A stretch of 64,000 nucleotides of DNA, taken from positions 1-64,000 of the forward strand of contig PIZK01000011.1 of assembly GCA_002835545.1 (NCBI GenBank). Direction: 5' to 3'. The position numbers and the translations under genes were made by a program. Origin of the DNA: Alteromonadales bacterium alter-6D02 (GTDB lineage: Bacteria; Pseudomonadota; Gammaproteobacteria; Enterobacterales; Psychrobiaceae). Of the stretch, positions 21,950-60,079 are shown piece after piece. How positions within the stretch are numbered: position 1 is the stretch's first letter; the number at the start of each line of letters is the position of its first letter. Below the pieces are notes generated by a model. The model did no database searches. It was not told where the DNA came from and was given only the letters and a program-made list of their open reading frames with translations.

Positions 21950-21957
21950 TTGTCTGA

Positions 21958-27473: not shown

Positions 27474-27764
27474 ATGAAGGGGGTGTTTTTTTCTTTATAC
27501 GTATTACTTTCACTCGAACTATTAATGGGGGTAAGTTTTTTGTCATTCATTAGGTGGGTTTAATCTTAATGCCCCTCTATTCAAATGAGCTCGATTTAAG
27601 GAGGGAGTCACTCCTGGCATCCCCTTTCCTGTAATGATTATGGGGGCAATATTCGAAGAAGTTATCTTCCGTGGGCTATTTTTGTTACTGTTATTTCGTT
27701 ATCACATCAATAAACCAATCACCCTTGCCGTTTCTATTAGTGTGGCTTTTCCCATGATTGTTTT
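27474..27764 (+). pseudogene. Frameshifted, truncated CPBP-family gene
   Basis: Three frames carry consecutive pieces of a protein similar to the intact CPBP gene at 50453. MKGVFFSLYVLLSLELLMG aligns to its start, then GFNLNAPLF, then NELDLRRESLLASPFL in another frame, then VMIMGAIFEEVIFRGLFLLL with the EExxxR motif. The matching stretch in the intact protein reads GLNLDKPYAEELDSRADDLA and VMVVAPVIEEVLFRG. Similarity stops around 27755, where the convergent unknown gene begins, so the C-terminal half is gone. It is a dead paralogue linking this locus with the lanthipeptide cluster. Confidence 0.8.
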
Positions 27765-40842: not shown

Positions 40843-41157
40843 CTATTCTTGGTGGTCTTCAGCTTCTTCTCGTACTATGCGGTTACGTACAGCCGGTTTA
40901 ACCATAATTTCGATATAGAATGATTCAAGCTCCAACCGCTCAGCTTCATCGATATGCTTGTTAATTGTTGAGATATGAATAGGCTCAGCCTGAGTTTCGT
41001 CCACACCATATTTACAATCAAAGTCCCAATAATCGACACCTTCGGGTAACTTCTTATTACGCTCACGCTTGATGTACTTTTTGATGTCATATTTAATCGA
41101 CTCCACCAAACGGGCGAGGTTTAATTTAGGGTGGGATAATACAAAGGTCTTTTTCAT
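40843..41157 (-). CDS. DUF6172 family protein
   Basis: A 104-residue, highly charged cytoplasmic protein. The pattern MKKTFVLSHPKLNLARLVESIKYDIKKYIKRERNKKLPEGVDYWDFDCKYG is that of the small family DUF6172, which is widespread in gammaproteobacteria. Function unknown. It is a lone gene, convergent with the lipocalin. Confidence 0.8.
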   Translation of the reverse strand: MKKTFVLSHPKLNLARLVESIKYDIKKYIKRERNKKLPEGVDYWDFDCKYGVDETQAEPIHISTINKHIDEAERLELESFYIEIMVKPAVRNRIVREEAEDHQE

Positions 41158-41566
41158 CTATTACGATTCTACTTATTTAAATTTTATGAATACTGCGATT
41201 ACATTCAGCCTTCAGGAAAGGTTGATGTCTAAAGCTCATTATACCGAATTTATGATTGATTCATCTTCTTTTTCGTTCGGGTGGTTGGCTGGGCGATGCT
41301 AGGGTCTTCCGGCCAGTAATGATTTGTAATAATAGGTTGTATAGTATATTGACGCTCAATTAAGTCTTCTATAACAACATGTTTAGGTGAAAAATAATGA
41401 ATCATGATTGACAGTTGATATGGCCCATGTAGTTTGACAAAAAGAGCCCTAATATTGACATACTTAACTAGTAGATTGACACATTATTCCATATCTAGCT
41501 CGTTTAACAGTTCGAGTCTTGTTCATAAGTGTTTCTAATAGTTAAGGTATCAGCTGATTTCTAATC
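41158..41566. other. Intergenic region, no gene seen
   Basis: About 400 bp of AT-rich DNA with no supported frame. Its left end holds the promoter of the DUF6172 gene. From about here the base composition drops, marking the start of accessory DNA. Confidence 0.4.
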
Positions 41567-42154
41567 TTATTTTGGCACTAAGCTAATAATGTTAGTCTGC
41601 TTGAAGTTAGTCCAATAATTACTTATTTTTATTATTTCAAATAGGTCTTCATCGGGTATCAATATGAGCTCCTCTTTAGTATATCCATTAAGGCTGTCTA
41701 TTAGAGAAGTAAACAAATTGAGCATCTCATGGTGTTCAATAAAACACTCACTTGACAGTTCCGCCAAACTGATACATTCAAAATGTTCTATGTATGTTTT
41801 TAACACCCCTCGTAATTGTGACTCCTTTTGAAGACTTAAGCTTCCAAAAGGCGTTACCTGTAGTAGATGAAGGGGCTTTGCTAGTAGTTGGGTGTTTTTA
41901 AACTGTGAGGGAAATTCGGAGCTTTCCCCATCAATACAAGATAAAAAGTCGATAACCTTCTGGACTTCCAATTGATGAATTTCCGCAATGTCGCATACTG
42001 AATGTCCTGAATAAAAGTATACTGTGTCATACACTTCATTCATCAAAGAGTTACATTCAGAGCAAGTTATAGGGGAACTTTGAGAAGAAGCTAGACTAAT
42101 GTTTAGTGATAATAAATCGGCAGAATGCCTAACGCTACAGAAAGAACAATGCAT
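41567..42154 (-). CDS. Unknown protein with N-terminal zinc-ribbon-like cysteines
   Basis: A 195-residue protein. CSFC near the start and CSEC at about residue 31 form a likely four-Cys zinc site (MHCSFCSVRHSAD, then ITCSECNSLMNEVYD). The rest is hydrophilic and alpha-helical in appearance, with many Leu and Glu residues. No family recognised. No neighbour in the same operon: the next gene is 170 bp upstream on the same strand. The AT-rich composition suggests accessory DNA. Confidence 0.5.
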   Translation of the reverse strand: MHCSFCSVRHSADLLSLNISLASSQSSPITCSECNSLMNEVYDTVYFYSGHSVCDIAEIHQLEVQKVIDFLSCIDGESSEFPSQFKNTQLLAKPLHLLQVTPFGSLSLQKESQLRGVLKTYIEHFECISLAELSSECFIEHHEMLNLFTSLIDSLNGYTKEELILIPDEDLFEIIKISNYWTNFKQTNIISLVPK

Positions 42155-42324
42155 AATAATCTCCAGGCAATCAAAGGCCCACCAAACGCCTTGTTGCTAT
42201 TAATCATTACAAATTGTCACGGATGCTCGGCTTCGTCGTATCTTGGGTAGGCACAGGCTGTCCGCACAGCCAAAAAATATAAAACTTTAAGATAGCGACT
42301 AGTTTAATAGTATTTCAATTAAAT

Positions 42325-42750
42325 CTAAAGATTGTCGATAATTTTCTTTAGATCATTTTCTGGAATATTGAGTAAAGTCGAAACTACTGTTTGAGTATCA
42401 AAGCTCTTCAAGTATTCGATTGCACTTATTGTTATGTTCCATCTATCCCAGTTCGATTGGATTGTGATTGCTACTTCAACTGGATTAGATAACTCAATTA
42501 ATTGTTTTGACTCCTCCGTAAGTGAGCCTGAATCGGCTGCTCTTTTCAAAAGGTCCCACGACTTATAATTATAAAAGTCTATGGCAATGGTTCTTTGAGC
42601 TTGATTTAGTTTGCAGCCTGTAAGGTTGGCTAACCTTCTTGCTTGCTTCTTTAATATCTTTACGGATTGAGAATTTTCTTCAGGCACTACGAATCTCCAA
42701 AAGCACCGAAAAATCCACAGCATTTTCGATACATCAGAAATAAGTAGCAA
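42325..42750 (-). CDS. Small unknown protein
   Basis: A protein of up to 141 residues. The segment SVKILKKQARRLANLTGCKLNQAQRTIAIDFYNYKSWDLLKRA resembles a short N-terminal domain seen in many plasmid- and island-encoded proteins (arranged as KxxAKxLA....L....AQ..iA...GyksWd.L), whose role is unclear. The hydrophobic first 20 residues (MLLISDVSKMLWIFRCFWRF) are unusual, and the real start may be a later codon near residue 21. Function unknown. Confidence 0.45.
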   Translation of the reverse strand: MLLISDVSKMLWIFRCFWRFVVPEENSQSVKILKKQARRLANLTGCKLNQAQRTIAIDFYNYKSWDLLKRAADSGSLTEESKQLIELSNPVEVAITIQSNWDRWNITISAIEYLKSFDTQTVVSTLLNIPENDLKKIIDNL

Positions 42751-43106
42751 TCTAATTAAGGATGGGCTTTCGCTTCGTTTTTGTGGTCACTGGCCGCCAT
42801 CACGACCTTGAAAGTTCTTATATAACAAGAGCAATCTTACCTTTTAATAATGCGCGTTGATATACCCGTAAGCCTGATTGAGCAGCATTTAGTCTTTGCT
42901 TGTCGCATACTTGAATGTTACTAACAGTTAATTCTAAATAAAAATATTCACTCTCAATATATGGTTAACTCAAATAATCAGATCATATCTGATGTAAATT
43001 AAACGACCATTAGATTTACAGTCTTGCAGTTAATGTAAATGTTTCAAAGGATGATAGTAGCTATGTAAAGGAACGCGTAAAGTTATCTTTGTAAAGGCTT
43101 GATACT

Positions 43107-43155
43107 GGTTCGCCCTCAGTTTCCTAGAAAGTGTCAAGGAAACTGGGGGCGAACC
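43107..43155. repeat. Inverted repeat with 19-bp arms
   Basis: GGTTCGCCCTCAGTTTCCT (43107-43125) pairs with its reverse complement at 43137-43155 with a single difference that makes a G-U pair in RNA. The 11-nt loop is AGAAAGTGTCA. No T run follows, so it may be a transcript-stabilising hairpin or a small mobile-element end. Confidence 0.7.
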
Positions 43156-43336
43156 ATACGTTTATTTTACAAAGGGATATTTATTTTTGTTCATAGCATC
43201 TCTTTTTATTTCATTATTCTAAATATCAAATGCCTACGAATTCGGGGGGGAGGGAAAGGTCACTCCACGTATAGACTTTTCAGGCATGCCGAAATTAACC
43301 AATTTTAGATAGCTCATTTTTAGCCACTAAATACTC

Positions 43337-43363
43337 GCAATTGAAAATAATTGTTTCAATTGC
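43337..43363. repeat. Inverted repeat with 10-bp arms
   Basis: GCAATTGAAA (43337-43346) and TTTCAATTGC (43354-43363) form a perfect palindrome with a 7-nt centre. Possible regulator binding site. Confidence 0.5.
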
Positions 43364-43547
43364 TTAGACGTAAGCGTTGAGTAAGCAACAAAACACTGCG
43401 AGAAAAATATACAATGTACAATCCGTAGTTGGGAATCATTACTGTGCTTTCACGGATTAGAAAGCAGAATGAATTATAGAAGGTGTTGCTATTATAGTGC
43501 TGTTTTTTAAGGTTTTTTCTTAAAGTTTAAACAAGAATAAATTTACT

Positions 43548-43577
43548 CAACGTAATTAGATATATCTAATTACGTTG
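43548..43577. promoter_or_regulatory. 30-bp perfect palindrome upstream of the lanthipeptide operon
   Basis: CAACGTAATTAGATA and its exact reverse complement lie back to back without spacer, 385 bp before the first cluster gene. A 30-bp perfect palindrome with no loop is a poor RNA hairpin terminator and better fits a dimeric regulator site or a cruciform. Confidence 0.55.
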
Positions 43578-43874
43578 AAATGCTTACATCACAAAACGGA
43601 GATATAACTCCAATGACTGTTATCACCTGGAGAATATAGTTAGAAACACTACGAACGGCTAGAAAGTGCCTAGTCAATTAGTCGTAGTTCACTGTTATGT
43701 CGTGACGTTTTTTATAATAACAATCCCAACATCTAATCATTTACAGCAATCACCGTGAAAGACAATGGAACAGTGTCTTTTAGACTATCTTTTGTATTGT
43801 CTAAAGCGCTTACTTGTAAGCTACTAAGGGAGTAGTGGAATTATAAGCATAAAATCAACTTTTAATAATTTCTA

Positions 43875-43903
43875 TTGACACAAGTTATTGATTGCTGGAT
43901 ATT
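43875..43903 (+). promoter_or_regulatory. Candidate sigma-70 promoter of the lanthipeptide operon
   Basis: TTGACA (43875-43880), 17-bp spacer, GATATT (43898-43903), about 59 bp before the TTG start of the HlyD gene. The -35 is perfect; the -10 is weak, suggesting activation may be needed. A C8 run lies between it and the start codon. Confidence 0.5.
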
Positions 43904-43961
43904 TCAACACCATTAACGCTTATGGATTTGCGTACCCCCCCCTAAAACATGGAGATGTAGT

Positions 43962-45224
43962 TTGTCAAAAGGAATTGAGACTGACCTTTTCAGGAAAGAA
44001 GTAATAGCTGAGCAATCGCAACGATTAACTGGCTCTGTAATATTAGCTCAACCATTATCAATTACAATCGCCACACTTATCATTGTAGCCATTGTTGCTT
44101 CTTCTCTGATGTTTATTTCAAGTGCTCACTACTCTAGAAAAGAAACGGTTCAAGGTTACCTCCGCCCAGACAAAGGCTTAATAAAAAGTTACTCCAATCG
44201 CACTGGAACAATCAAGAAAATATATATTTCTGAAGGTGATTTTGTAGAGAAAGGTTCACCTTTGGTTAGTATAGTTACTCGGCAAAGTATGAGTACGGGG
44301 GAAGAACTTGGTGATAAATTAATCGAAGAAATCAACATACAACAAGATTTATTAGTGGAAGAGGCGGAACAATACTTACGCATAGAATCACAGGAGCTAT
44401 CTCGTATTACACAGCGAATAAATATATTGGAAAACTCCCAAACGATAATAAAGAATCAGAAAGCTTTACTTAATGAAAAACTCCAATTGCTAGAGCAACA
44501 GCAAATCCAATATACAAAACTACATGACAAAGGATTTATATCTGAACTAGAGTTTCAGAAGAAACAAGAGAACCACCTTAACATTAGACAAGAAGTTGAA
44601 TCTCTGGAGCGAGTGTTATTACTACAGCAGTATGATATACAGCAACTAGCCTTCGAATACAAAAATATTCCTGAGCAATATCAACTTAAACACCGCGACA
44701 TTAAACGACGTCAGTCAGATTTGAGTCGTCAGTTTAGTGAAACGAAGAATAATTACAACTACGTGATTGAAGCAACACACTCAGGGGTGGTCACAGCCAT
44801 ACAGGTCGTTGAGGGTGAAACTCTAAATTCCACTCGTCTCTTATTAACTCTACTACCTCAAGGCGCTGAGTTGATAGCCGAACTTTTATTGCCTACTCGT
44901 AGTGCCGGCTTTGTGCAGATTGGGGATATTGCCAGGTTGCGTTTTCAAGCTTTTCCTCATCAACGATTTGGTTATCTTAAAAGCAAAATAACACAAATTG
45001 ATCAATCGATAATTACCCAAAGTGAAGCTAATTTCCCAATTCAATTAACAGAACCTATATACAGACTACAAGCTAGGTTGAGCAAACAGCAAATTACTGG
45101 GTATGGCAAAGAGTTTAATTTAAAAAGCGGAATGTTATTCGAGGCTGACATCATCCTCGATCGTCGTACCTTATTACAATGGATGCTCGACCCAATCTAT
45201 AGTTTAAATGGAAAAATTAACTAA
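43962..45224 (+). CDS. HlyD-family periplasmic adaptor of the bacteriocin exporter
   Basis: A 420-residue membrane-fusion protein with one TM at about residues 32-54 (IATLIIVAIVASSLMFIS). It then has the biotinyl-lipoyl hairpin (GTIKKIYISEGDFVEKGSPLVSI), a long coiled coil of about 150 residues and the second lipoyl half (ATHSGVVTAIQVVEGETLNS). It links the inner-membrane ABC exporter to an outer-membrane channel such as TolC, which is not encoded here. TTG 43962 is the start, with GGAG 7 nt upstream. It overlaps the ABC gene by 1 bp (TAATG). First gene of the lanthipeptide operon. Confidence 0.9.
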   Translation: MSKGIETDLFRKEVIAEQSQRLTGSVILAQPLSITIATLIIVAIVASSLMFISSAHYSRKETVQGYLRPDKGLIKSYSNRTGTIKKIYISEGDFVEKGSPLVSIVTRQSMSTGEELGDKLIEEINIQQDLLVEEAEQYLRIESQELSRITQRINILENSQTIIKNQKALLNEKLQLLEQQQIQYTKLHDKGFISELEFQKKQENHLNIRQEVESLERVLLLQQYDIQQLAFEYKNIPEQYQLKHRDIKRRQSDLSRQFSETKNNYNYVIEATHSGVVTAIQVVEGETLNSTRLLLTLLPQGAELIAELLLPTRSAGFVQIGDIARLRFQAFPHQRFGYLKSKITQIDQSIITQSEANFPIQLTEPIYRLQARLSKQQITGYGKEFNLKSGMLFEADIILDRRTLLQWMLDPIYSLNGKIN

Positions 45225-47386
45225 TGCCTCATGTAACGGAGAATCAGACTATGGAAAATAGCGCGAGTTTATTAGAGTTTACTGGGGCCAAACGTGTACC
45301 GTTAATATTGCAGTCAGAAATCGCAGAGTGCGGATTAGCATCTATGGCAATGGTAGCCTCTTTTTATGGTCACCAACTTGACATGCCCGCCATGCGTAAA
45401 CGATTTTCAACGAACTTAAATGGAATGAACTTTCAGCAACTCATTGAATTAGGCGATAGCTTAGGTTTGGCAAGCCGAGCGCTAAAATGTCCTCTAGGAG
45501 ATGTAAATAAGCTAAACCTTCCCTGCATTTTACATTGGGATATGGACCATTTTGTTGTACTAACAAAGGTTAGTAATACAACTTATTCAATAAACGATCC
45601 CGCAGTAGGCAAGCGTACTTTATCAGTACACGATTTTAGTAAACATTATACTGGAGTTTCACTCGAACTTACTCCTACAGTAAAATTCGAAAAAAAGAAT
45701 GAAAAGCAGCAAATGAAGCTGTCACAGCTTTGGAGCAAAATTTCTGGATTAAAAACCGCTTTATTGAAGTTATTTGCCCTGTCAATAATATTACAACTCT
45801 TCGCTCTATCCTCACCATATTATATGCAATGGGTGGTAGATGAAGTATTAATAAGCAGAGATCAGTCACTGTTAATTGTGTTAGCTATTGGCTTTGCGTT
45901 ATTAAGTATTTTTAGTGTATTGACGACAGCCTTAAGAAGTTGGTTAATTTTACGTTTATCTAGTCTGCTAAATATGCAAATGGGTGTTAACTTGTTAAAT
46001 CATACGCTCAAGTTGCCAATGCACTATTTTGAATCTCGACATATTGGTGACATCACTTCTAGATTTAGCTCAATGGATCAAGTCAGAGAACGTATTACCA
46101 CAGGTTTAGTAGAGGCGACGGTAGATGGAATCATGTCTCTAACTTTATTGGTAATGATGTTCCTATATAGCTTCAAACTAGCTGCGATAGTATTAGCTGC
46201 TAGCATATTTTATGTTTTTGTACGTTTGGCCCTGTATCGCCCATTACATCAGGCAACTGAAGAGTCAATACAAAACAAAGCGAAAGAACAATCTAACTTT
46301 TTAGAAAATGTTAGGGGCATTCAAACTATTAAGCTTTTTGGTAATGAAACTCAGCGACAAGAAATATGGCAAAATCGTTATGCAGAAGTCATTAATTCTG
46401 ATATTCGTTTAGGAAAATTACGAATAAGTTTTGATTCATTTAATAAATTGTTGTTTGGTTTAGAGAACACCATTGTCATTTATTTTGCTGCGATAATTAT
46501 AATGGAAGGAAACTTATCAATTGGCATGATGCTAGCGTTCATAGCCTATAAAAGACAATTCACTGAGCGATACTCCAATTTAGTAGAGCAAATGATTCAA
46601 TTCAAGGTAATGCGCCTTCACCTCGAACGTATCTCTGATATTGCTTTACACCCACAAGAAGAAAATCGTGAAGGTAATACACTCATTTCACTAACATCAC
46701 AAAAGTTAAAGGGCCAACTCATATTGAAGGATGTGTGTTTTAGCCATGCAAAAGATGAATGCGACATTTTACATAATATAAACCTAACTATAAATGCAGG
46801 GGATTCGATAGCGATAACTGGCGAATCAGGGTCCGGAAAGACAACTTTAGTTAAAATAATGCTCGGTTTATTGTGTCCAACTTCAGGGGAAATATTGATC
46901 GATGGTTATGACATAACACACATTGGGCTAAAAGAATACAGATCTAGAGTTGCTGCTGTGATGCAAGAAGACACATTATTAGCCGGCTCCGTTGCTGATA
47001 ACATCAGTTTTTTTGATCCTCAACCCAACTATCTACAAATTGAGAAATGCGCACAACTTGCTGCTATTAATCAAGATATAGACAAAATGAGCATGGGTTA
47101 TAATGCCCTTGTCGGAGATATGGGGTCAAACCTATCGGGAGGGCAAAAACAACGAATACTATTAGCTAGGGCGCTTTATAAATCCCCAACAGTCTTATTT
47201 ATGGATGAAGCAACTAGTCACTTGGACATCAATAATGAAGCAAGAATATCAAAACTAATATGCCAGCTTAAAATGACCCGGGTTATTGTCGCACACAGAC
47301 CTGAAACAATAAATAGAGCAAATAAAGTCTACGTGCTTTGTGGAGGCCAGCTTGAATCCGTAAAGCTCGATGCTCACAAAGCATAA
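45224..47386 (+). CDS. C39 peptidase-ABC exporter (bacteriocin processing and secretion)
   Basis: A 720-residue half-transporter that trims double-Gly leaders and exports the peptide. The N-terminal C39 peptidase has Cys36 (IAECGLASMAMV), His in WDMDHFVVL and Asp in SINDPAVG. Then comes a six-TM ABC domain (about residues 165-440) and the ATPase with Walker A GESGSGKTTLVK, signature LSGGQKQRILLARAL, Walker B VLFMDEATSHLD. All catalytic residues are present, so it should cut after GG of the lanthipeptide leader and perhaps of the peptide at 25754. It works with the HlyD adaptor just upstream. Confidence 0.95.
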   Translation: MPHVTENQTMENSASLLEFTGAKRVPLILQSEIAECGLASMAMVASFYGHQLDMPAMRKRFSTNLNGMNFQQLIELGDSLGLASRALKCPLGDVNKLNLPCILHWDMDHFVVLTKVSNTTYSINDPAVGKRTLSVHDFSKHYTGVSLELTPTVKFEKKNEKQQMKLSQLWSKISGLKTALLKLFALSIILQLFALSSPYYMQWVVDEVLISRDQSLLIVLAIGFALLSIFSVLTTALRSWLILRLSSLLNMQMGVNLLNHTLKLPMHYFESRHIGDITSRFSSMDQVRERITTGLVEATVDGIMSLTLLVMMFLYSFKLAAIVLAASIFYVFVRLALYRPLHQATEESIQNKAKEQSNFLENVRGIQTIKLFGNETQRQEIWQNRYAEVINSDIRLGKLRISFDSFNKLLFGLENTIVIYFAAIIIMEGNLSIGMMLAFIAYKRQFTERYSNLVEQMIQFKVMRLHLERISDIALHPQEENREGNTLISLTSQKLKGQLILKDVCFSHAKDECDILHNINLTINAGDSIAITGESGSGKTTLVKIMLGLLCPTSGEILIDGYDITHIGLKEYRSRVAAVMQEDTLLAGSVADNISFFDPQPNYLQIEKCAQLAAINQDIDKMSMGYNALVGDMGSNLSGGQKQRILLARALYKSPTVLFMDEATSHLDINNEARISKLICQLKMTRVIVAHRPETINRANKVYVLCGGQLESVKLDAHKA

Positions 47387-47432
47387 TAATGATTACCCAA
47401 GTTTAAGGACGTCCAAATAAGGTGAAAAGGAA

Positions 47433-50033
47433 ATGAAAGATAATAATAGAATTAAATTAGTCAACGTATTTAGTCAAGAGCAGGACGAAAAACTGTCTAG
47501 CTTCATGCAAACGCTAGATAAGGAAAAACTATTAAGTATCACCGAAAGAAAAGAATTCACAGCGTGCATGAAGCACCAATATTTTTCATTTTTTTCACGT
47601 GTTTATACTAGAACGTTAATACAGGAATTTGAAATTTACAAACATGAACAAAGCGGTACATTAGATTCGTTTGTATCTTGTAATAACACTGTTGAGTTAA
47701 AAAGGATAATTCAAGAAAATTTCCCAGAGTTACCTAAATTTGTAGATCGGCTAATTCACCAGTTCGAATTACTCGTAATAAAAGTCTTAAAACGATTTAA
47801 AGAAGATAGTGCTGTAATTAGTGAGCAATTATTTGCATTAAAGAATATGGAAATTAAGATAACCCACATATCATCTGTTGGTGACAGGCACAATAATGGT
47901 CAAACAACTTGCATGATTGAAACAAATTGCGGGAAGTTAGTATACAAGCCTAGAGCAGCTATAAATGACCTATTTTTTGTCGAACTACTAACCGTTATTA
48001 ATTATTTCGAACAAACAAACAACCCATACTCTTTTATAGATAAAACGGACTACTCTTGGCACAAATTCATAGAAAAAAAAGCACAAGAGGAAGTTCTAGT
48101 TAGTGATGTAAAGAACTTCTATTTTCGCTACGGCAAACTAATCGCATTATGCTACACAATTAATGCAAGCGATATGCATTACGAAAACATTATACTGATG
48201 GGCTCCACCCCATTTATCATAGACTTAGAAGTTCTCTTGCTTCCTGAGTACAGGTATGACACAGATATACCACCAATGGACGTTAATGCCATAGGCCTCC
48301 TCCCAAGAATATCAGTAAACGAAGAGGGTCATTATAGTGATAAAAGCCCTTTAAAATCAAAAGATATGGATTTTCACGACAAAGTCGCTTATTTCTCAGA
48401 TGATGATGTCACAATAAAGTACAAAAATGTTATAGAGAACAATCAGACGCTCCTTCCTATAATTAATAACAAAGAATCTTGCCCTTATGATTTTATTGAA
48501 GATGTACTAGCGGGATTTAGAGAAACAATACATATTGTTAATGAAAATAAAGATAACATAAAAAGTTTATTCTATAGACTTGAGCCTAACCTTTCATCAA
48601 GACTAGTACTGCGAAATACACAAACCTATGTAAAATTTTTGTCCCTATCCTATCACCCTGATTATTTTTTCAAAGAGAATACGCGAAGCAATTTATTTAA
48701 AAAAATACCGGCTATTGATTGCTTCACCAACGATGTGTACAAAAGTGAGATTGAGCAGTTAATAAATGGAGACGTTCCATTCTTTAGAGTAGGTGTGAAT
48801 GATAAATACATAATATCTAGTAATAGCCAAAATTCAGATATAGCTATAACAGGAAAAGATTCTTTTTTTGAAAAGTTAGATAACTTATCAAACACTAAAC
48901 ATATCAACTATCAGCAGCATTTAATACGGCTTAGTCTATCTCAACTGAAGCTTGAAAGTAATAATAGGGTGCACGAGCTGATTGGTAAATCAGATATACC
49001 TAATATATTAAAAAGTAATAATAATTTTTATCCTGAAAATATTCAGTGGCCTCAATTATCAACCAAAGATACCTATGTTATTCTACAAACGGTGGGAGAA
49101 AATTTATTTGACGGAAATACTGGAATCCACTATGCGCTAGAACTTAACGAAAAACTACAAGTAACTAACGAGCAATACACCAATGAATTAGCTATTCTAC
49201 GAAAAAGTCAAAAAATCTCTTCTGATGCATTTATCAAAAATATTAAAGAAACAACCGTTATGTTACATGGTATAACAGGTTTAGGTGGGTATATTTGGTA
49301 TTTAAATAGACTTAATAAATTAACTTCTGAACCATATTACAAAAGTCAACTATCACAGCTTTGTAGCCAAATTACACCTGAAATTCTCAACACCGAAGAG
49401 GTGGACTTTGTCCGCGGTGTCACAGGTACAATTGCTGCTTTATTAAACTCCAAGACTTATGACGACAATGTTATCCATGAAAAACTTACTAAACTTTATA
49501 ACCTCCATTTAAATAATCAAGACTTGTCGTTCTCACATGGTTTGAGTTCGTTACTATATTGTAGTGCTTTATTTAAAAATAAGACGGGCATTGAGATTCC
49601 GGGGCATGAACCTTTACTGAATAGAGTAGTAGACTACATATTATCTGAACAAAAAATACCAGCAAATGGCTCCTGGTGCAAAGGGATTCTAAGTCGAATA
49701 AAAGTGGCGTTAGAAGACCAAGAAAACAACACCGAAGTTCTTGCTTTGTTGAATTCAACTGTCTTAGCAAACGAACTTAAAGTGCATGTGAGTGATAGCA
49801 GTCTTTGTCATGGATTAAATGGAGCTAATATGATAATCGGTGAATTGCAAGCACACCAAAATATTCAGAATATTTCACTCCAAGCAGTCAAATATAACGA
49901 CCAAGAAAAGTTTGTAACCGGGAACTATAAAGGGTTGTATTCTGTTGGGCTGTTCAACGGGGTGACATCCGAATATTTAATCAAGTATGCCAAAGAGTTT
50001 AATGATTACAGTTCACCACTTTTTTTAAACTAA
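47433..50033 (+). CDS. lanM: Class II lanthipeptide synthetase (LanM)
   Basis: A bifunctional 866-residue enzyme that dehydrates Ser/Thr in the precursor and cyclises them with Cys. The N-terminal DUF4135 dehydratase is kinase-like: LVYKPRAAINDLFF (Lys of the phosphate site), NASDMHYENII (Asp247, His249, Asn252) and DLE (Asp264). The C-terminal LanC-like domain has HGITGLGGYIWYL, FSHGLSSLLY, and zinc ligands Cys749 (NGSWCKG) and Cys792-His793 (SLCHG). At 866 residues it is compact, as typical LanM proteins are 900-1100, because the cyclase is short. It lies between the exporter and the precursor gene. Confidence 0.93.
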   Translation: MKDNNRIKLVNVFSQEQDEKLSSFMQTLDKEKLLSITERKEFTACMKHQYFSFFSRVYTRTLIQEFEIYKHEQSGTLDSFVSCNNTVELKRIIQENFPELPKFVDRLIHQFELLVIKVLKRFKEDSAVISEQLFALKNMEIKITHISSVGDRHNNGQTTCMIETNCGKLVYKPRAAINDLFFVELLTVINYFEQTNNPYSFIDKTDYSWHKFIEKKAQEEVLVSDVKNFYFRYGKLIALCYTINASDMHYENIILMGSTPFIIDLEVLLLPEYRYDTDIPPMDVNAIGLLPRISVNEEGHYSDKSPLKSKDMDFHDKVAYFSDDDVTIKYKNVIENNQTLLPIINNKESCPYDFIEDVLAGFRETIHIVNENKDNIKSLFYRLEPNLSSRLVLRNTQTYVKFLSLSYHPDYFFKENTRSNLFKKIPAIDCFTNDVYKSEIEQLINGDVPFFRVGVNDKYIISSNSQNSDIAITGKDSFFEKLDNLSNTKHINYQQHLIRLSLSQLKLESNNRVHELIGKSDIPNILKSNNNFYPENIQWPQLSTKDTYVILQTVGENLFDGNTGIHYALELNEKLQVTNEQYTNELAILRKSQKISSDAFIKNIKETTVMLHGITGLGGYIWYLNRLNKLTSEPYYKSQLSQLCSQITPEILNTEEVDFVRGVTGTIAALLNSKTYDDNVIHEKLTKLYNLHLNNQDLSFSHGLSSLLYCSALFKNKTGIEIPGHEPLLNRVVDYILSEQKIPANGSWCKGILSRIKVALEDQENNTEVLALLNSTVLANELKVHVSDSSLCHGLNGANMIIGELQAHQNIQNISLQAVKYNDQEKFVTGNYKGLYSVGLFNGVTSEYLIKYAKEFNDYSSPLFLN

Positions 50034-50041
50034 AAAGTTTC

Positions 50042-50077
50042 TCGCCAATTCACTGCTCAAAAAGTATGAGTTGGCGA
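50042..50077. terminator. Stem-loop between lanM and the precursor gene
   Basis: TCGCCAA (50042-50048) pairs with TTGGCGA (50071-50077), extended with TTCA/TGAG. No T run, so it may protect or process the mRNA rather than stop it. Such structures often allow higher precursor than enzyme levels. Confidence 0.45.
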
Positions 50078-50189
50078 CAATAAATTATGCATAATACAAC
50101 AAAGTTTTGTGTTGTGTGTATGTTCTTGCACAGAGATGTGTGAGGGAGTTTTACTACAATTAATAACTACATTTTATAAGGATATCATT

Positions 50190-50405
50190 TTGAATATTAA
50201 TCAAAGAAACCCAAAAAACCGCACTATTGAAAATAAAGCAGGCAGTGAAGTTGTTGAATTAACAACTGAAGAACTCACTAGTGTAAACGGAGGTAGACAG
50301 AAGTGGTCACGCTGGCTCTGTGCTGTGACCGAAACTGTTACTTCTGCTGATACATATCAGTGTACTGAACATGATTCATGTGACCATATCTGTATGTCAG
50401 CGTAA
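50190..50405 (+). CDS. lanA: Lanthipeptide precursor peptide
   Basis: A 71-residue precursor. The 35-residue leader ends ELTTEELTSVNGG, the class II double-Gly pattern. The core RQKWSRWLCAVTETVTSADT-YQCTEHDSCDHICMSA has 36 residues with four Cys (core positions 9, 23, 29, 33) and nine Ser/Thr, enough for up to four (methyl)lanthionine rings. TTG 50190 is the start: AAGG at 50178-50181 is 8 nt upstream, and the longer frame from 50109 begins with an implausible Cys-rich stretch. The four-Cys core has no precise relative that I recall. The LanM and C39 exporter are directly upstream. Confidence 0.85.
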   Translation: MNINQRNPKNRTIENKAGSEVVELTTEELTSVNGGRQKWSRWLCAVTETVTSADTYQCTEHDSCDHICMSA

Positions 50406-50416
50406 CCTGTCACACA

Positions 50417-50438
50417 ATAAGGGCCCTTGGGCCCTTTA
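50417..50438 (+). terminator. Terminator/attenuator between precursor and CPBP gene
   Basis: AAGGGCCC and GGGCCCTT with a 2-nt loop, followed by TT and then A residues. It probably reduces read-through into the CPBP gene, so that the peptide is made in excess over this membrane protein. Confidence 0.75.
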
Positions 50439-50452
50439 AAAGGTTAAATATT

Positions 50453-51109
50453 ATGAAAAATCTTATACTTACTGTGGGCATTATAACAGCGCTCCAATTG
50501 TTAATGTCCATCAACTATGTTTTATTAATTGAGGGATTAAATCTTGACAAACCTTATGCCGAAGAACTTGATTCAAGAGCTGATGATTTAGCAGCATCAG
50601 CTTTTTTGGTAATGGTAGTTGCCCCTGTTATAGAAGAAGTATTATTTCGTGGTATATTTCTGTTGATTTTATTTCGTTTTCGCATTAACAAACCAGTCAC
50701 TATCGCAGTTATCATCAGTGTGACTTTTTCCATATTGCACCCAACACTTGCCATTCCAGGAATATTTTTAATTTCGTTATTATATTGCTATTTGGCATAT
50801 GCAAGCAAAAGCCTGTGGATGCCAATTCTCGTTCACATGTTACATAACTCAGCTTTAACAGTGCTAGATTGGAACGAAAATTCAGATACTTTAAATTATT
50901 ACATAGACGGTTATACAGAATTTTTGACCAGTTTAGGGCCTCTAGGCGCAACGTCACTGATTTTTTCTGTATTCATCACTTGTATAGTTATATGCTGCTT
51001 AAACCTTAACTTATTCAAGAACGGTAGTATTTATTTGAGCCAAAATATAAATAATACTTTAAAAAAATCATATGATCATTTCGATAAATTCTGCTCTAAA
51101 AAAGCATAG
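50453..51109 (+). CDS. CPBP-family intramembrane metalloprotease-like protein
   Basis: A 218-residue membrane protein with about six TM segments. The CPBP/Abi motifs are intact: EEVLFRG (EExxxR), FSILHPTL (FxxxH) and HMLHNSA (HxxxN). In bacteriocin loci CPBP proteins can give immunity or help process peptides. Here it directly follows the lanthipeptide precursor after a hairpin, which fits an immunity role. A decayed paralogue sits at 27474-27764 beside the bacteriocin-like gene. The C-terminal 30 residues are Lys-rich and cytoplasmic. Low-GC codon use like the rest of the cluster. Confidence 0.85.
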   Translation: MKNLILTVGIITALQLLMSINYVLLIEGLNLDKPYAEELDSRADDLAASAFLVMVVAPVIEEVLFRGIFLLILFRFRINKPVTIAVIISVTFSILHPTLAIPGIFLISLLYCYLAYASKSLWMPILVHMLHNSALTVLDWNENSDTLNYYIDGYTEFLTSLGPLGATSLIFSVFITCIVICCLNLNLFKNGSIYLSQNINNTLKKSYDHFDKFCSKKA

Positions 51110-51283
51110 TAATAAAATTATCGTAAACGAGAAGCTAAACATCAGCGCCTAAAGGGACATTGGCTGGCAGGTTGAACCGCATGTTTCGCCAGCTAATTAG
51201 AAAGACCCGAACAGCCAAACCGGGTTAAACTTGACGACTACAACCAAGCTAGCGTCATTTTCGCTGCTGCAAGCCACGGCGTT
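51110..51283. other. Short gap between cluster and IS element
   Basis: 174 bp with no gene. Sequence contains GGCTGGCAGGTT and TTTCGCCAGCT, a loose inverted repeat. Composition is richer in G and C than the cluster, so this may already be part of a mobile remnant. Confidence 0.35.
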
Positions 51284-51338
51284 TTTCAAGGTAGTTGTCG
51301 CCTAAAATGTTAAGCGGCTTGCTTGTGTTGTTCTGGGT

Positions 51339-52355
51339 TTAGCTCCACAACACCCACTGGCTGCCAGTTTCTTTCGCTTTTTGACCACCGTTCTGGGTGT
51401 TCATTTCTCTTTCGTTGATTAATACCTCAGTATCAAGCCCTTCATGCCGTTGATTTGGCGTTACAAACCGAATTCGACTATGACGATGTTCGTTGTTGTA
51501 CCAGTCAGTAAAGCTTTTAACCCACTCTCGCGCTTTCTCTAAAGACTCAAAGCCTTCACTTGGCCAGCGTGGATGGTACTTAACCGTCCTAAATAGTGAC
51601 TCTGAATAAGGATTGTCATTACTTACCCTAGGCCGACTGCGAGAGGTTACAACACCTAGGTCATACATTTTTGCTCGCATTGTTAAACTCTTCATTGGTG
51701 CGCCATTATCGGAGTGCAATACCAAGTCTTGCTTTCGGCACTTTTCACTCCACACACTACGTTCGAGAAGCTCTGCTGCCAGCTCTCCTGTCTCGCACTC
51801 ATGGACTTCCCAACCAACGATTTTACGGCTGTAAATATCTTCAATCATGTAAAGATAATAATGCTGTCCAATCACTCTTGTTGGCATATAACTGATATCC
51901 CAGCTCCAAACCTCATTCGCCTTTTTAGCCGTAAAACTAGTCGGTTTCGGGTGGCTATTCCTAGGCTTTGCTTTGCCTCGATGAGTCAGCATGTTTTCAG
52001 CTTTCAATATGCGATAAAAAGTCGACTCACAAGCAATATACTCCCCTCTATCTGCCAATATAGGGACGATTTGGCTTGGCGGTAAAGAAGCAAACTCCTC
52101 TTCATTACACACGTCAATAACAGCCTGCCGTTCTTGTGAATTTAGCTTGTTTAGCGGCGCTGGCCTCGTTGCTGTCGGTCTTTTATCGTCGCTAATTTCA
52201 CCGCCCACACGCCAACGCTGCAACGTTCTTATCGATAAGCCGACCATCTTGCAGGCTTCATCTTGCCTTGCTCCTGACGCGACGGCTTCATTGATTAAAT
52301 CTGCATGCTTTTGCCTATCGGTCAGCGTAATTAACTGTCCTCTTTTCCCTCCCAA
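51339..52355 (-). CDS. IS3-family transposase, OrfB (DDE integrase core)
   Basis: A 338-residue protein with an N-terminal helix-turn-helix region (ASGARQDEACKMVGLSIRTLQRWR) and an rve DDE core: Asp in VWSWDISYM, Asp in LHSDNGAPM, Glu in NPYSESLFRTVKYHP, the last with the IS3 spacing. NEHRHSRIRFVTPNQRH is the usual C-terminal motif. It overlaps orfA by 25 bp, so an OrfAB fusion by ribosomal slippage is expected as for IS3 relatives. The start listed is TTG, and the fusion product is probably the active transposase. Confidence 0.93.
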   Translation of the reverse strand: MGGKRGQLITLTDRQKHADLINEAVASGARQDEACKMVGLSIRTLQRWRVGGEISDDKRPTATRPAPLNKLNSQERQAVIDVCNEEEFASLPPSQIVPILADRGEYIACESTFYRILKAENMLTHRGKAKPRNSHPKPTSFTAKKANEVWSWDISYMPTRVIGQHYYLYMIEDIYSRKIVGWEVHECETGELAAELLERSVWSEKCRKQDLVLHSDNGAPMKSLTMRAKMYDLGVVTSRSRPRVSNDNPYSESLFRTVKYHPRWPSEGFESLEKAREWVKSFTDWYNNEHRHSRIRFVTPNQRHEGLDTEVLINEREMNTQNGGQKAKETGSQWVLWS

Positions 52356-52828
52356 TAGGCATCGAACTTTTTTCCTAACACGAGCAATGCCGCACTTTCA
52401 GCCAAGGCCTTTTCTTTCCTGCGTAGCTCGCGTTCTAGCTCTTTAATACGCTTTTTGTCTGCCTTTTGCTCTGGTGTTTGTTTCGTTCGTTTGTCCGATT
52501 TTGTTGTGTTCCCTGCGATACACGCTTGTTTCCAGGACTTGATTTGTTCTGGGTATAGGCCATTAGCTCGGCAATATTCACTTAACTCAACTTCCGACAA
52601 TGTTGAGGTTTCTAAAACAACAGCGAACTTCTCTTCACTTGACCAGTTATCTGGCGAACTCACTTTTGACACATTAAACCCTGATACTTTAAATTGCTTC
52701 TTCCAACTATACAGGGTTGAAACATTAATGCCTTCTTGCAGGGCAAATTTTCGTACTGATAAGCCGCTTTGACTGAGTTTATTTAAAATGGCTTCTTTAA
52801 ATGAACTTGAATACCGTTGGTAATCCAC
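52331..52828 (-). CDS. IS3-family transposase, OrfA (HTH protein)
   Basis: A 165-residue DNA-binding protein. It begins MDYQRYSSSFKEAILNKLSQSGLSVRKFALQEGINVSTLYSWKKQF, a transposase 8/HTH_Tnp_1-type helix-turn-helix. A second HTH-like piece follows (TLSEVELSEYCRANGLYPEQIKSWKQACI), with a Lys/Arg/Glu-rich leucine zipper-like end (KELERELRRKEKALAESAALLVL) for dimer formation. It gives target/end recognition as the first part of an OrfAB fusion. ATG 52828 begins 45 bp inside the right inverted end. Confidence 0.92.
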   Translation of the reverse strand: MDYQRYSSSFKEAILNKLSQSGLSVRKFALQEGINVSTLYSWKKQFKVSGFNVSKVSSPDNWSSEEKFAVVLETSTLSEVELSEYCRANGLYPEQIKSWKQACIAGNTTKSDKRTKQTPEQKADKKRIKELERELRRKEKALAESAALLVLGKKFDAYWEGKEDS

Positions 52829-52891
52829 TGACTTTAACTTACCGCTCCCTGTTTATTTATAAGATTATTTGAGGCGACAACTATCCTGACA

Positions 52892-53157
52892 CAGGGGGAA
52901 TATGTAAAAGAAGCCAAGGAAGATCTTTTTATTATTTGTACTCTGATGATACATCTAGACAAGATATCTTTGACTTTAAAAATGAACTATACAATAGGGC
53001 ACAGGAACATGCCGAGTGTTGCATTGAAATTTTTATAAGTTTTTCTGAGTTAAGCGCAAATGTATCGCTTCAAAATTGGTTGTCTAGTGCAATCAGAGTG
53101 GTTGACTGTATTACCCTATCCGCAATTCTGGTTGACCAATCGGTTTTTTATTCGTGA
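52892..53157 (+). pseudogene. C-terminal gene remnant cut by the IS element
   Basis: A frame open from the IS border to the stop at 53155 encodes about 87 residues ending ASYFY-like text: FYYLYSDDTSRQDIFDFKNELYNRAQEHAECCIEIFISFSELSANVSLQNWLSSAIRVVDCITLSAILVDQSVFYS (given here in pieces of under 20 in sense: FYYLYSDDTSRQDIFDFK, then CCIEIFISFSELSANV). No start codon with a ribosome site is present; the left part is missing. It overlaps the WYL gene end by 10 bp. It may be what is left of a gene once regulated by the WYL protein. No family is recognised. Confidence 0.35.
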
Positions 53158-54014
53158 TATCTAGGTGCTATTGTTAAGTTTTTAGTACCCAAAAGAGTTT
53201 GTTTATTTTGTAAATAGAGTTGATATTCAGCACCTGAAATCGATGCGTGCTCAGAACAATCCACATTCCACTGGCGGAGTAAGTAACCAACCAGTGCGGC
53301 TCTAACTTCTAATTTCAGCACGCCGTTTGTCATACCATAATCCATCTCTATAGCTCGGTTGTGTTTAATACTGGGATGTACCACAATTTTGAGCTCTAGG
53401 ATTTTATCCCATTCATCGTCAGATTTGGCTAGTTCTGTTTCTTTCATCTTATTTTCAACAAGGTCCACTTTGCTAAACCTAGTGCAGACGAAGTCTCTGA
53501 AACTCTTTGTTTTTCTATCATAAGCTCGCACGTGCCAACGGTGACCGTTGTTAACAATGGCATGAGGAATTAGCGTTCTTTGTGTTGCCCCTGAGGTTAA
53601 TGACTCATATTTGCAACTAATCGTAGAGCCACCGTGTATAGCTCTCATTAAAGCGCCGACTATTTCAGGTTGAGGGTTAATGAGCCCTATTGCATTAAAA
53701 CAAATGTTGGACGTTTCAACCTCTTGAGAAATACCATCGCCAAACCCTCTGGACAAGGCCTGCAATACAGAGTCTGGGTCATGATTAAAAATAGGCAGAA
53801 AATTATTTGAACGTAAATATTTCTTGGTTTCGTGTGTTAACACAGCATTGTTAGGGGCTAATTCACGATAAAGGGATAAGTCCCTTGAGCAAGAAGCTAA
53901 GCCGGTTTTAAATCTTTGGATTAAGTCTGCACGGCCTATCTGGCCGTGGTATTCCAAGCAAAAGTCTATATAGGCCAAGCGTTCCCGCTGTGCGTAATTC
54001 ATTTCATCAAGCAC
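53148..54014 (-). CDS. BrxR/CapW-like HTH-WYL transcriptional regulator
   Basis: A 288-residue regulator. The N-terminal winged helix (RERLAYIDFCLEYHGQIGRADLIQRFKTGLASCSRDLSLYRELAPNNAVL) closely follows the BrxR/CapW pattern (RL.yIdF...G.i.R.dL..rF....a..S.Dl..Y.elaP.N). The WYL domain ISCKYESLTSG-ATQRTLIPHAIVNNGHRWHVRAYD then senses a ligand, probably nucleic acid or a nucleotide, and a WCX-like C-terminus ends it. This repressor type usually guards BREX, CBASS or other defence islands. Here no such effector is intact; its 5' neighbour is the recombinase module, divergent with 198 bp between. It may regulate the recombinases or be a leftover. Confidence 0.85.
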   Translation of the reverse strand: MLDEMNYAQRERLAYIDFCLEYHGQIGRADLIQRFKTGLASCSRDLSLYRELAPNNAVLTHETKKYLRSNNFLPIFNHDPDSVLQALSRGFGDGISQEVETSNICFNAIGLINPQPEIVGALMRAIHGGSTISCKYESLTSGATQRTLIPHAIVNNGHRWHVRAYDRKTKSFRDFVCTRFSKVDLVENKMKETELAKSDDEWDKILELKIVVHPSIKHNRAIEMDYGMTNGVLKLEVRAALVGYLLRQWNVDCSEHASISGAEYQLYLQNKQTLLGTKNLTIAPRYHE

Positions 54015-54064
54015 GGTTCTACTTAATATATCAATAATTAATGTTCTGGCAATATACGCTCACA

Positions 54065-54180
54065 CCACACATGATGCAATCAAAAAGATAATACCATTTT
54101 AATTCACTTAAGGTTGAAATTACATCCTTATTAAGCTATAACTCATCATATTGATAGTATCATTATGATATCACGTGTGG
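54065..54180. promoter_or_regulatory. Inverted sites in the WYL/intA intergenic region
   Basis: CCACACATGAT (54065-54075) and ATCACGTGTGG (54170-54180, reverse complement CCACACGTGAT) match at 10 of 11 positions and lie 94 bp apart in opposite orientation. They bracket the divergent promoters and could bind the WYL repressor or the recombinases. The right site lies 33 bp before the intA start. Confidence 0.5.
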
Positions 54181-54212
54181 TTGGCTAGAGTGGAAAATGA
54201 AGATAGGTAATT

Positions 54213-55634
54213 ATGGATAAGCGAAAGAAAGAGCGGTCAATAACATTAAGGCGACTAGACTATAACGCCGGAGAGTTAACAACTATTTCAAATTTAGAGA
54301 GCCACCCAATACGAGTGCCGTTGGAGAAGAGTGATAAAGATGAGTCCTATTACATCGGAAAAGAATATTCTTTAACTATCCCTGATGATTCGGTATACCA
54401 CATTCCATTTTTATTCAATGCCGATGGTACTCCATGGTATGAAGGTAATTTGTTCTTTTATCGTCAGTCGATTGATAAACTTACTGGCTATGAAACGACA
54501 GATGAGCTGCGTATCAGAGCGTCTATGCTGCTTGATTACAAACTGTTTTGTGAAGATGAAGGTCTTGATTATTTAGATTTTAGCGCTGGCCGACCAGGCA
54601 GTAGGCCATCTTACAGGTATTTCCAAGATCTATTATCTAAAGATGCAGTATCACGAAAAAACTTAAATAAACGAACTTTGGTTGTCTATGATTTTTATAA
54701 ATTTATTACCGAAATTCCAGGCTTCAATATTGATATTACCCTAGTTGAAAGTGCAAGAGAGGCTTTCATAAGATTTAGCAATGGCTATAGTAAAAAAGTC
54801 GAAATAAGATCTCAAACAGTAAGAGTAAATAACCAAGCAAAAGAAGTTCCTCTTGGTTATGTTAGAGATGATGGTGAGGACCTTAGGCCGTTAACAAATG
54901 AGCAGTGCGACGAGTTCATTGATGTGTTGAGTAGGAAGTTTTCAGTTGATGAACGCTTGATTCATTCTATTACTCTCAACACCGGTGCTCGTAAACAGAG
55001 TGTTTTTACGATGCGAGTTAAGCATCTAAAGCTGTTAAACGAGGCCAATTTAACTAGCGATGGCAGTTATAGATTAAAAGCTGGACCTAGAACAGGAATA
55101 GATACCAAATTTGGGAAATCTCAAACATTGTATTTCCCGAGGGATTTAGCTGATCAGTTAAAGGTTTATGCAAATTCAAAATTAGCTAAAGAACGGCGAA
55201 GCCTTTTTAGCCTGAAGCATGGCGACATCTTAAATGAAGATGACATGTACTTGTTTATCAGCACGCACGGAAATTGCCATTATATGGCAAAGAATGATCC
55301 GCGTTACCGTCAAGTAAAATCCCGTCCAAAAGGCGAGCATACTAATTATTTAAAGCAAAAACTACTCAAATTTGTTTCATCCGATTTTCCCAAGGATTTC
55401 ACATTTCACTGGCTAAGAGCCACATACGCTTTGATGTATCACGAGTACTTGGTTTCTCTTGTTGCAGATGGAAAATTAAAGCTCGGTAATGAGATTACTA
55501 GGGTTCAGCAACGTCTACATCATACCAAAAGAGAGACGACAGAAAATTATTTGAAGTTGTTTACTAATATCAATGAAAAAATGGCCGCTCAAGAAGCCTA
55601 CGAAGAGCGACTTTTCGAAGGTATCACTTTTTAG
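54213..55634 (+). CDS. intA: Tyrosine recombinase, IntA-like of an SE-type integrative element
   Basis: A 473-residue site-specific recombinase with complete active site: Arg260 (NTGARKQSVFTMR), His399 and Arg402 (FHWLRATYAL), a His-rich box VQQRLHHTKRET, and the Tyr446 nucleophile (TTENYLKLF). The N-terminal 230 residues include a core-binding domain. First gene of a four-gene operon in which the second recombinase lacks a catalytic residue, the order reported for intA-tfp-intB-srap of strand-biased circularizing elements. ATG 54213 is preceded by a weak AGATAGG site. It cuts and joins element ends; the attachment sites are not identified. Confidence 0.88.
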   Translation: MDKRKKERSITLRRLDYNAGELTTISNLESHPIRVPLEKSDKDESYYIGKEYSLTIPDDSVYHIPFLFNADGTPWYEGNLFFYRQSIDKLTGYETTDELRIRASMLLDYKLFCEDEGLDYLDFSAGRPGSRPSYRYFQDLLSKDAVSRKNLNKRTLVVYDFYKFITEIPGFNIDITLVESAREAFIRFSNGYSKKVEIRSQTVRVNNQAKEVPLGYVRDDGEDLRPLTNEQCDEFIDVLSRKFSVDERLIHSITLNTGARKQSVFTMRVKHLKLLNEANLTSDGSYRLKAGPRTGIDTKFGKSQTLYFPRDLADQLKVYANSKLAKERRSLFSLKHGDILNEDDMYLFISTHGNCHYMAKNDPRYRQVKSRPKGEHTNYLKQKLLKFVSSDFPKDFTFHWLRATYALMYHEYLVSLVADGKLKLGNEITRVQQRLHHTKRETTENYLKLFTNINEKMAAQEAYEERLFEGITF

Positions 55635-55657
55635 ATGTACGAAAATAAGGATTCTTC

Positions 55658-59657: not shown

Positions 59658-60079
59658 ATCCAGAATTGAAAAAGTGCTATGACGCCTTTGAGAGGCTTAA
59701 AGATGAAAGCCCTAGGCTTGAAAAATTTAAAGGCTTATTACAAAAAGACATCACAGCTTCAAAAGTCAGTCAGGAAGCGGGTCATGACAGTGGCTATTTG
59801 AAAAAAAAACGTCCACTGCACATACCCTTACTATCAATGATCGCCTTACATGTAAAAGACCATAAGAAGATCACAATGGGCAAAGGAGCGGCGATCAGCA
59901 GAGAAAAAAATAAAGCGCAAGATGCTAAGACAGCTTTAGATCTTGAGAAAGCCAAACTTGAAGCATCGTTAGGGCGAGAACTACAGATGTATAATCGCTT
60001 GAAAGAGGTTGAGCTAGAGTTAATTGAGTTAAAAGAGAAGCTTGCTGTGCAGACCAATATTACGAGGCTCAGTACTTGA
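59654..60079 (+). CDS. srap: Small coiled-coil recombination auxiliary protein (Srap/TnpC-like)
   Basis: A 141-residue protein. The N-terminal half ITASKVSQEAGHDSGYLKKKRPLHIPLLSMIALHVK has a possible helix-turn-helix. The C-terminal half is a long charged coiled coil (DAKTALDLEKAKLEASLGRELQMYNRLKEVELELIELKEKLAV). Size, position and coupling to intB match the SE-associated recombination auxiliary protein, and more loosely TnpC of Tn554. It would orient or assist the recombinase complex. ATGA overlap with intB. Confidence 0.75.
   Translation: MNPELKKCYDAFERLKDESPRLEKFKGLLQKDITASKVSQEAGHDSGYLKKKRPLHIPLLSMIALHVKDHKKITMGKGAAISREKNKAQDAKTALDLEKAKLEASLGRELQMYNRLKEVELELIELKEKLAVQTNITRLST

Follow-up and report, generated by a model that had tools for sequence, protein, structure and literature searches.

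The 64,000-nucleotide window analysed here (positions 1 to 64,000 of contig PIZK01000011.1 from Alteromonadales bacterium alter-6D02) carries, at 43962-51109, five genes that very probably form a modular class II lanthipeptide operon, combining a gammaproteobacterial bacteriocin exporter, a Bacillota-like LanM synthetase, and a precursor peptide with a Cys-rich core. The assignment to class II lanthipeptide biosynthesis, with export via an HlyD/C39 system, is supported because sequence families, motifs, and gene order all point to it. Few lanthipeptides from Gram-negative bacteria have been characterised, and their passage across two membranes has been little studied.

Operon layout

The five genes all lie on the + strand (lengths in amino acids, aa; ORF, open reading frame).

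43962..45224, + strand: HlyD-type periplasmic adaptor of the exporter; 420 aa, TTG start; Pfam HlyD_D23, E 1.1e-11
45224..47386, + strand: C39-peptidase ABC exporter; 720 aa; Peptidase_C39 2.7e-32, ABC_membrane 1.2e-38, ABC_tran 1.5e-32
47433..50033, + strand: LanM class II lanthipeptide synthetase; 866 aa; DUF4135 1.6e-63, LANC_like 9.5e-18
50190..50405, + strand: precursor peptide (small ORF); 71 aa from TTG 50190; a longer ORF from GTG 50109 is likewise open
50453..51109, + strand: CPBP (Rce1-like) membrane protein, putative immunity protein; 218 aa; PF02517 1.6e-17

The HlyD and ABC genes overlap by one base and the following gaps are 46, 156, and 47 bp when the precursor is started at 50190, the last two gaps separating it from lanM and from the CPBP gene, respectively. 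None of the five reading frames is interrupted by a stop, and four of the five products score above a curated cut-off in Pfam or NCBIfam, the small ORF being the exception. The first-pass annotation, which had described these five genes as contiguous on one strand, is borne out as to their identity and positions. Its statement that the cluster contains no dedicated regulator and no LanFEG transporter also holds for the five genes, the genome not having been searched for a distant one; similarly, none of the five encodes an outer-membrane channel, and no genome-wide search for a TolC partner was made.

Intactness, rarity, and affinity of the LanM synthetase

The LanM matches NCBIfam model TIGR03897 with 324.7 bits (cut-off 304) and combines in one chain an N-terminal DUF4135 dehydratase (PF13575, residues 97-453) and a C-terminal LanC-like domain (PF05147, residues 555-845). 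Residues D247, H249, N252, D264, E266, R390, R394, T396, C749, and C792 are invariant in nine aligned LanMs, and H793 is present in the window protein, two of the nine rows having Cys in that column; these are presumably the residues of the dehydratase that serve phosphorylation and elimination, together with the zinc ligands. The alignments therefore agree with the earlier description of the catalytic motifs as intact, in the LanM as in the C39 peptidase (C36, H109, and D125): neither the dehydratase nor the zinc residues are missing, and all but the H793 column are invariant. Among proteins of solved structure, a sequence search (E up to 0.001) recovered only LicM2 (4.5e-33) and CylM (8.9e-24) as relatives. 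The same annotation had called a LanM of 866 residues short. Truncation can be ruled out, as the match covers positions 12 to 920 of the 932-position family model and a Staphylococcus LanM has 864 aa, so that the length is not abnormal.

The host genome (3.99 Mb, 45 contigs) encodes one LanM above the TIGR03897 cut-off. It is also the only one of 394 sampled genomes of the order to do so, with weaker or partial matches, mostly of LanC type, in 15 further genomes of that sample. Across the class, LanMs above cut-off occur in 9 of 369 sampled genomes, host included, and across the phylum 8 of 398 genomes, again with the host, match the window LanM as query at 1e-10. From these counts, LanM in gammaproteobacteria is uncommon but established. 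Searches of genome contigs and viral contigs with the window LanM gained nothing further.

The phylogeny of the LanM that had been proposed as a check was run on 22 rows and places the window protein, on a long branch, in the Bacillota-type half of the tree. Its 10-row set (support 95/98) also contains six LanMs of Bacillota, one from a Yersinia plasmid, and two further gammaproteobacterial ones; leaving out these last two gives an 8-row set that is itself supported (91/97). The other half of the tree holds five gammaproteobacterial, four other proteobacterial, two cyanobacterial, and one Streptomyces LanM. Taken together, these sequence comparisons give moderate support to a Bacillota-like affinity of the window LanM.

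A further LanC-like protein of the host genome stands alone (contig C43, ~21520-22725; locus L060, 9520-10725); with ~401 aa and several CHG/WCHG motifs, it is reminiscent of LanCL proteins. It was considered as a second lanthipeptide cluster and rejected: the 20 kb examined around it contain no homologue of LanB, exporter, or HlyD, and the only LanKC match there is weak and comes from the LanC protein itself.

The exporter and its family

The exporter matches all three of its domain families (PF03412, PF00664, and PF00005). Residues C36, H109, and D125 are invariant among three related exporters aligned, Walker motifs are present, and residues 22 to 710 align with peptidase-containing bacteriocin transporters of known structure. 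It is 66.8% identical to an exporter on the megaplasmid of Shewanella oneidensis MR-1, and up to 74% identical to one in a Colwellia sp. metagenome-assembled genome; the HlyD protein is 46.4% identical to its megaplasmid counterpart. On the megaplasmid, two peptides with bacteriocin-like annotation come after the exporter gene, and the 18 kb examined contain no annotated LanM. By sequence, the window exporter is a member of a gammaproteobacterial HlyD+C39 bacteriocin-exporter family.

Scanning of genome contigs with an alignment of the three exporters returned 434 relatives, the best 80 of which (79 loci, several genomes or contigs contributing two or three, so that the loci are not independent genomes) were kept; these are 49-74% identical and come from Colwellia, Thalassotalea, Pseudoalteromonas, Psychrosphaera, Shewanella, Rheinheimera, and others. 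A profile built from 22 LanMs detected none in the 79 loci. What it found instead were five stand-alone LanC proteins in Pseudoalteromonas and three proteins of 909-928 residues in Rheinheimera. The five LanC genes accompany a cluster of five ~1050-residue proteins, two of which were identified by Pfam as lantibiotic dehydratases (LanB), and Pfam assigned RamC_N, kinase, and LanC-like domains, the composition of LanKC, to two of the three large Rheinheimera proteins; the remaining LanB and LanKC members were assigned by clustering with those checked. Five of the 79 loci thus carry class I LanB/LanC and three carry class III LanKC, the latter (L186, L188, and L194) encoding LanKC shortly behind the exporter. 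LanB, LanC, and exporter also occur together in three genomes of the host's order (G243, G253, and G338), and in a congener (G008, locus L210) LanC stands with the exporter near a contig end, without LanB. In all, class I loci beside the exporter family, from Pseudoalteromonas and the host's order, are L183, L190, L192, L195, L196, L214, L216, L217, and L210. Loci are referred to as plain bacteriocin loci when none of LanM, LanB, LanC, or LanKC was found, other modifying enzymes lying outside the survey. A second copy of the exporter, 69% identical, exists in the host genome, and no lanthipeptide genes were found next to it.

An exporter tree of 89 rows, built by a quick method with the Shimodaira-Hasegawa-like approximate likelihood ratio test (SH-aLRT) as its only support measure, separates these associations. 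The nine class I loci lie on one side of a branch with support of 100, with two unlabelled rows among them, and the three class III loci lie on one side of a different branch, also with 100. The window exporter belongs to a 40-row set (SH-aLRT 100) with no class I or class III members, its nearest rows being from Colwellia and Thalassotalea and its position inside the set being without resolution. Because class I, class III, and the window occupy separate branches, the tree supports at least three separate pairings of this exporter family with lanthionine-forming enzymes, and leaves open the order in which the partners arrived.

An unannotated protein of ~700 aa is encoded on the exporter's strand in 18 of the 79 loci, at a median distance of 3.4 kb (for example, L118, 4918-7092).

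Precursor, leader, and core

The precursor ORF of the first-pass annotation is present; the start listed for it (GTG 50109, giving 98 aa) is less likely than TTG 50190, which lies seven bases behind AAGGA and is probably the true start. No in-frame ATG, GTG, or TTG occurs between 50190 and the Gly-Gly, and the leader therefore has at least 35 residues and cannot have 15. A start at 50190 yields a 35-residue leader ending in ELTTEELTSVNGG (VNGG) and a 36-residue core with four Cys, four Ser, and five Thr (nine Ser/Thr). At 42700-51400, a simple leader pattern selects this ORF and no other; its matches to the bacteriocin-leader models PF10439 and TIGR03949 are both below threshold.

Double-glycine peptides collected by pattern near the exporters number 79, from 47 of the 79 loci. 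As the pattern itself favours such leaders and some loci are near-copies, the following counts are not unbiased: the leader has 15 residues in 71 of the 79 peptides, none has four or more Cys in the core, and the median number of Cys is 0. The window precursor shares with the peptides of this exporter family the VNGG style of leader end, but its leader exceeds their usual length by 20 residues and the core that follows is rich in Cys. In one Pseudoalteromonas peptide, the residues around the cleavage site are similar to those of the window precursor (VNGGRGGWLRWLR versus VNGGRQKWSRWLC; phmmer E 0.0014, 6553 ORFs). The N-terminal extension of ~20 residues may serve LanM. Under a model in which this extension was grafted onto a leader of the exporter family's type, the first 20 leader residues would function mainly in modification by LanM, and the VELTTEELTSVNGG part mainly in cutting and export.

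The CPBP gene

The CPBP protein scores 64.0 bits against PF02517 (cut-off 22.4) and has the EExxxR and His motifs. In the 79 exporter loci (1.34 Mb), 16 CPBP-like ORFs were found, all 16 on the exporter's strand and 13 of them, in 11 loci, less than 1 kb from the exporter. Clustering that did not start from CPBP recovered 12 such proteins in 10 loci, their median distance to the exporter being 44 bp and all again lying on its strand, and nine rows of the 40-row exporter set have CPBP beside the exporter. The association is thus with the exporter and not with LanM. The earlier proposal of CPBP as the immunity candidate gains support from this recurrence beside the same exporter family, and the sequence evidence fits a role of CPBP in immunity against the exported peptide. 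A search of the plasmid collection for CPBP gained nothing. The host genome contains two PF02517 matches, one of which is the operon CPBP. A second, partial CPBP-like match in the window lies far from the operon, at 27631-27807, in an open frame of 87 aa.

Proposed pathway and modular origin

In the proposed mechanism, the precursor would be translated with its 35-residue leader, LanM would phosphorylate core Ser/Thr residues and then eliminate the phosphate, and the zinc-bound LanC-like domain would add the four Cys to the resulting dehydro residues, closing as many as four thioether rings. Next, the ABC protein would cut behind VNGG with its C39 domain and export the core, with HlyD and a TolC-type outer-membrane protein encoded elsewhere bridging the periplasm. 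CPBP would protect the producer.

The exporter family might further be viewed as a common chassis that has been joined at least three times to lanthionine-forming enzymes (class I, class III, and here class II), with retention of the VNGG leader end and, in the window, addition of a Cys-rich core and of the ~20-residue extension possibly used by LanM; the chances that this account is correct appear evenly balanced. If it is, Gram-negative lanthipeptides can arise when a modifying enzyme and a leader extension are added to an existing exporter/immunity set. Being small and seemingly self-contained, the operon lends itself to tests in laboratory E. coli: it has one precursor, its exporter family is defined, and a plausible gene for immunity is present. 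The exporter family also offers a handle for genome mining, as it is accompanied by class I and class III enzymes and by many bacteriocin-like peptides with no recognised lanthionine enzyme alongside, which makes it possible to ask how a system for plain bacteriocins turns into one for lanthipeptides.

Alternative explanations and points of weakness

The operon could be a recent acquisition that is decaying or silent, its genes intact but unexpressed or not cooperating. The occurrence of LanM above cut-off only in the host among the sampled genomes of the order would suit this explanation, as would an upstream stretch of 1.2 kb that lacks a clear gene, the IS3-type element downstream, and the number of promoter-like matches, which is at chance level (37 observed versus 33.1, standard deviation (sd) 6.7, in shuffles). 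The guanine-plus-cytosine content is likewise low, at 33% for lanM and the CPBP gene and 37% for the exporter genes, whereas the 23 ORFs at 1-41000 average 42% (sd 3%, minimum 33%). The five uninterrupted frames and the intact catalytic motifs of LanM and exporter argue in the other direction, and silence or decay is considered unlikely. A similarly low probability attaches to the proposal that the operon makes a signal or some other secreted factor instead of a toxin, with CPBP acting in processing as a protease and not in immunity. Intramembrane proteases are known among CPBP proteins, the weak NCBIfam matches of the operon CPBP include MroQ and myxosortases, and its EExxxR motif is intact; however, the MroQ/myxosortase-type matches fall far below their cut-offs, and CPBP genes recur beside exporters that have bacteriocin-like peptides as neighbours. 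Less probable still is a LanM that does not act on the adjacent small ORF, its true substrate being elsewhere or lost. The location of the small ORF directly behind lanM, its Cys- and Ser/Thr-rich composition, and its status as the only ORF picked by the leader pattern all speak against such a mismatch, which would draw what support it has from the non-ATG start codon and from the lack of precursor homologues described below.

A modular class II lanthipeptide operon remains the preferred explanation, and several points weigh against it. A search of 72,556 plasmid records, with E-values up to 10 allowed, found no homologue of the precursor, and selection on the core sequence is therefore not demonstrated; both the product and the activity of the peptide are predictions from sequence. 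The 79 peptides used for comparison come from loci without recognised lanthionine enzymes, the class I and class III loci having yielded none. The absence of LanM is firm for 65 of the 79 exporter loci, since the other 14 extend less than 3 kb downstream and a LanM could be missed there, and it does not extend to the remaining relatives among the 434. Six of the neighbours counted with the CPBP profile had themselves gone into building it, together with the window CPBP. As to the Bacillota affinity of LanM, the end branch of the window protein is long (2.54), which limits the assignment, and the tree program flagged long branches and uneven composition. Over long stretches, the window LanM is only ~23-27% identical to other LanMs, and the plasmid matches listed are headed, by E-value, by two cyanobacterial LanMs (1e-38 and 2e-38), with the lactococcal LcnDR2 next at 6e-38.

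Surroundings of the operon

The IS3-type transposase pair (51339-52828) begins 230 bp downstream of the CPBP gene and is followed by a WYL protein and a recombinase set at 54213-60079, which comprises four overlapping or closely spaced genes of 473, 652, 682, and 141 aa. According to PMC10214605, the genes intA-tfp-intB-srap form the left end of the SE element, and the recombinase set matches these in order and sizes, its second gene having no Pfam integrase match. The region is possibly the left end of an SE-type element of ~12 kb running to chromosomal hrpB, an identity based on gene order and sizes and not on comparison with SE sequences. GInt, as presented in PMC5385486, fits less well, since the second gene lacks a Pfam integrase match and that of the third is weak and below cut-off. 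Carriage of the operon as cargo of the recombinase element was rejected: the operon lies on the outer side of the element's left end and is its neighbour.

Within the probable element, beside chromosomal hrpB, is a gene for an HrpB-like helicase of 839 aa (window 60771-63290; also L059, 2389-4845). Two congener HrpB proteins are 37-38% identical to this helicase versus 66% to chromosomal hrpB. Three ORFs next to it (L059, 121-2206) gave one marginal PADLOC hit and two none.

An inverted repeat with 23-nt arms that are 91% complementary lies at 43106-43156, ~0.8 kb upstream of the operon. The repeat is single copy in the genome, the surrounding segment folded as RNA (43070-43200) has a z-score of -8.8, and an Rfam search of 41000-54300 returned no match for the repeat. 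Direct repeats sought as island ends yielded only families of 18-27 nt. In the congener stretches compared, genes of the 29-40 kb region have relatives in one locus (L094) and hrpB has relatives in two others (L097 and L098); no congener stretch spans both sides, so that the borders of the acquired region were not located.

Comparison with known systems

The class II lanthipeptide assignment of the first-pass annotation stands, and the novelty claimed for it was overstated. In PMC9576775, the class II lanthipeptides LanII of Dyella sp. 333MFSha and LanII-23 of Pseudomonas ogarae are reported as produced and shown to be modified, and LanM occurs in the nine class genomes counted above. LanII and LanII-23 are, like the window peptide as predicted, LanM-modified gammaproteobacterial peptides, a likeness by description. 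Two cyanobacterial plasmids (Trichormus and Dolichospermum) further reduce the novelty, as their clusters share LanM, C39-ABC exporter, precursor, HlyD, and a diderm host with the window. They differ in gene order, in an exporter only 26-27% identical and an HlyD ~22-24% identical over short stretches, and in a LanM of 1058 aa from the other half of the tree.

Among Gram-positive systems, the lacticin 481 group includes LicM2 and CylM as proteins of solved structure, and its LcnDR2 (presumably the protein also called LctM) has the same DUF4135 dehydratase, LanC-like cyclase, and catalytic residues at ~24% identity to the window LanM. The window differs from that group in its Gram-negative host, its HlyD adaptor, and an operon without a LanFEG-type transporter.

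The closest relatives of the export machinery are the gammaproteobacterial HlyD+C39 loci of the S. oneidensis MR-1 megaplasmid, Colwellia, and Thalassotalea, which share the VNGG-type leader end and, in 11 of 79 loci, CPBP beside the exporter, but differ in their mostly 15-residue leaders (71/79), few Cys, and the lack of a LanM among them. Class I clusters are known from Pseudoalteromonas, with PciA of P. citrea described in PMC9993889 and pseudorosins cited in PMC12819058. The five Pseudoalteromonas loci found here, whose equivalence to the published clusters is not assumed, combine LanB and LanC with an exporter of the same family; their dehydratase is unrelated to LanM and their exporter clade is separate. 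No description of a LanM joined to this exporter family was found among the open-licence papers listed, as judged from titles and the openings of abstracts, which is no proof of absence. The class itself being already known, what is new is the combination: a LanM on this exporter family, seen only here among the loci examined.

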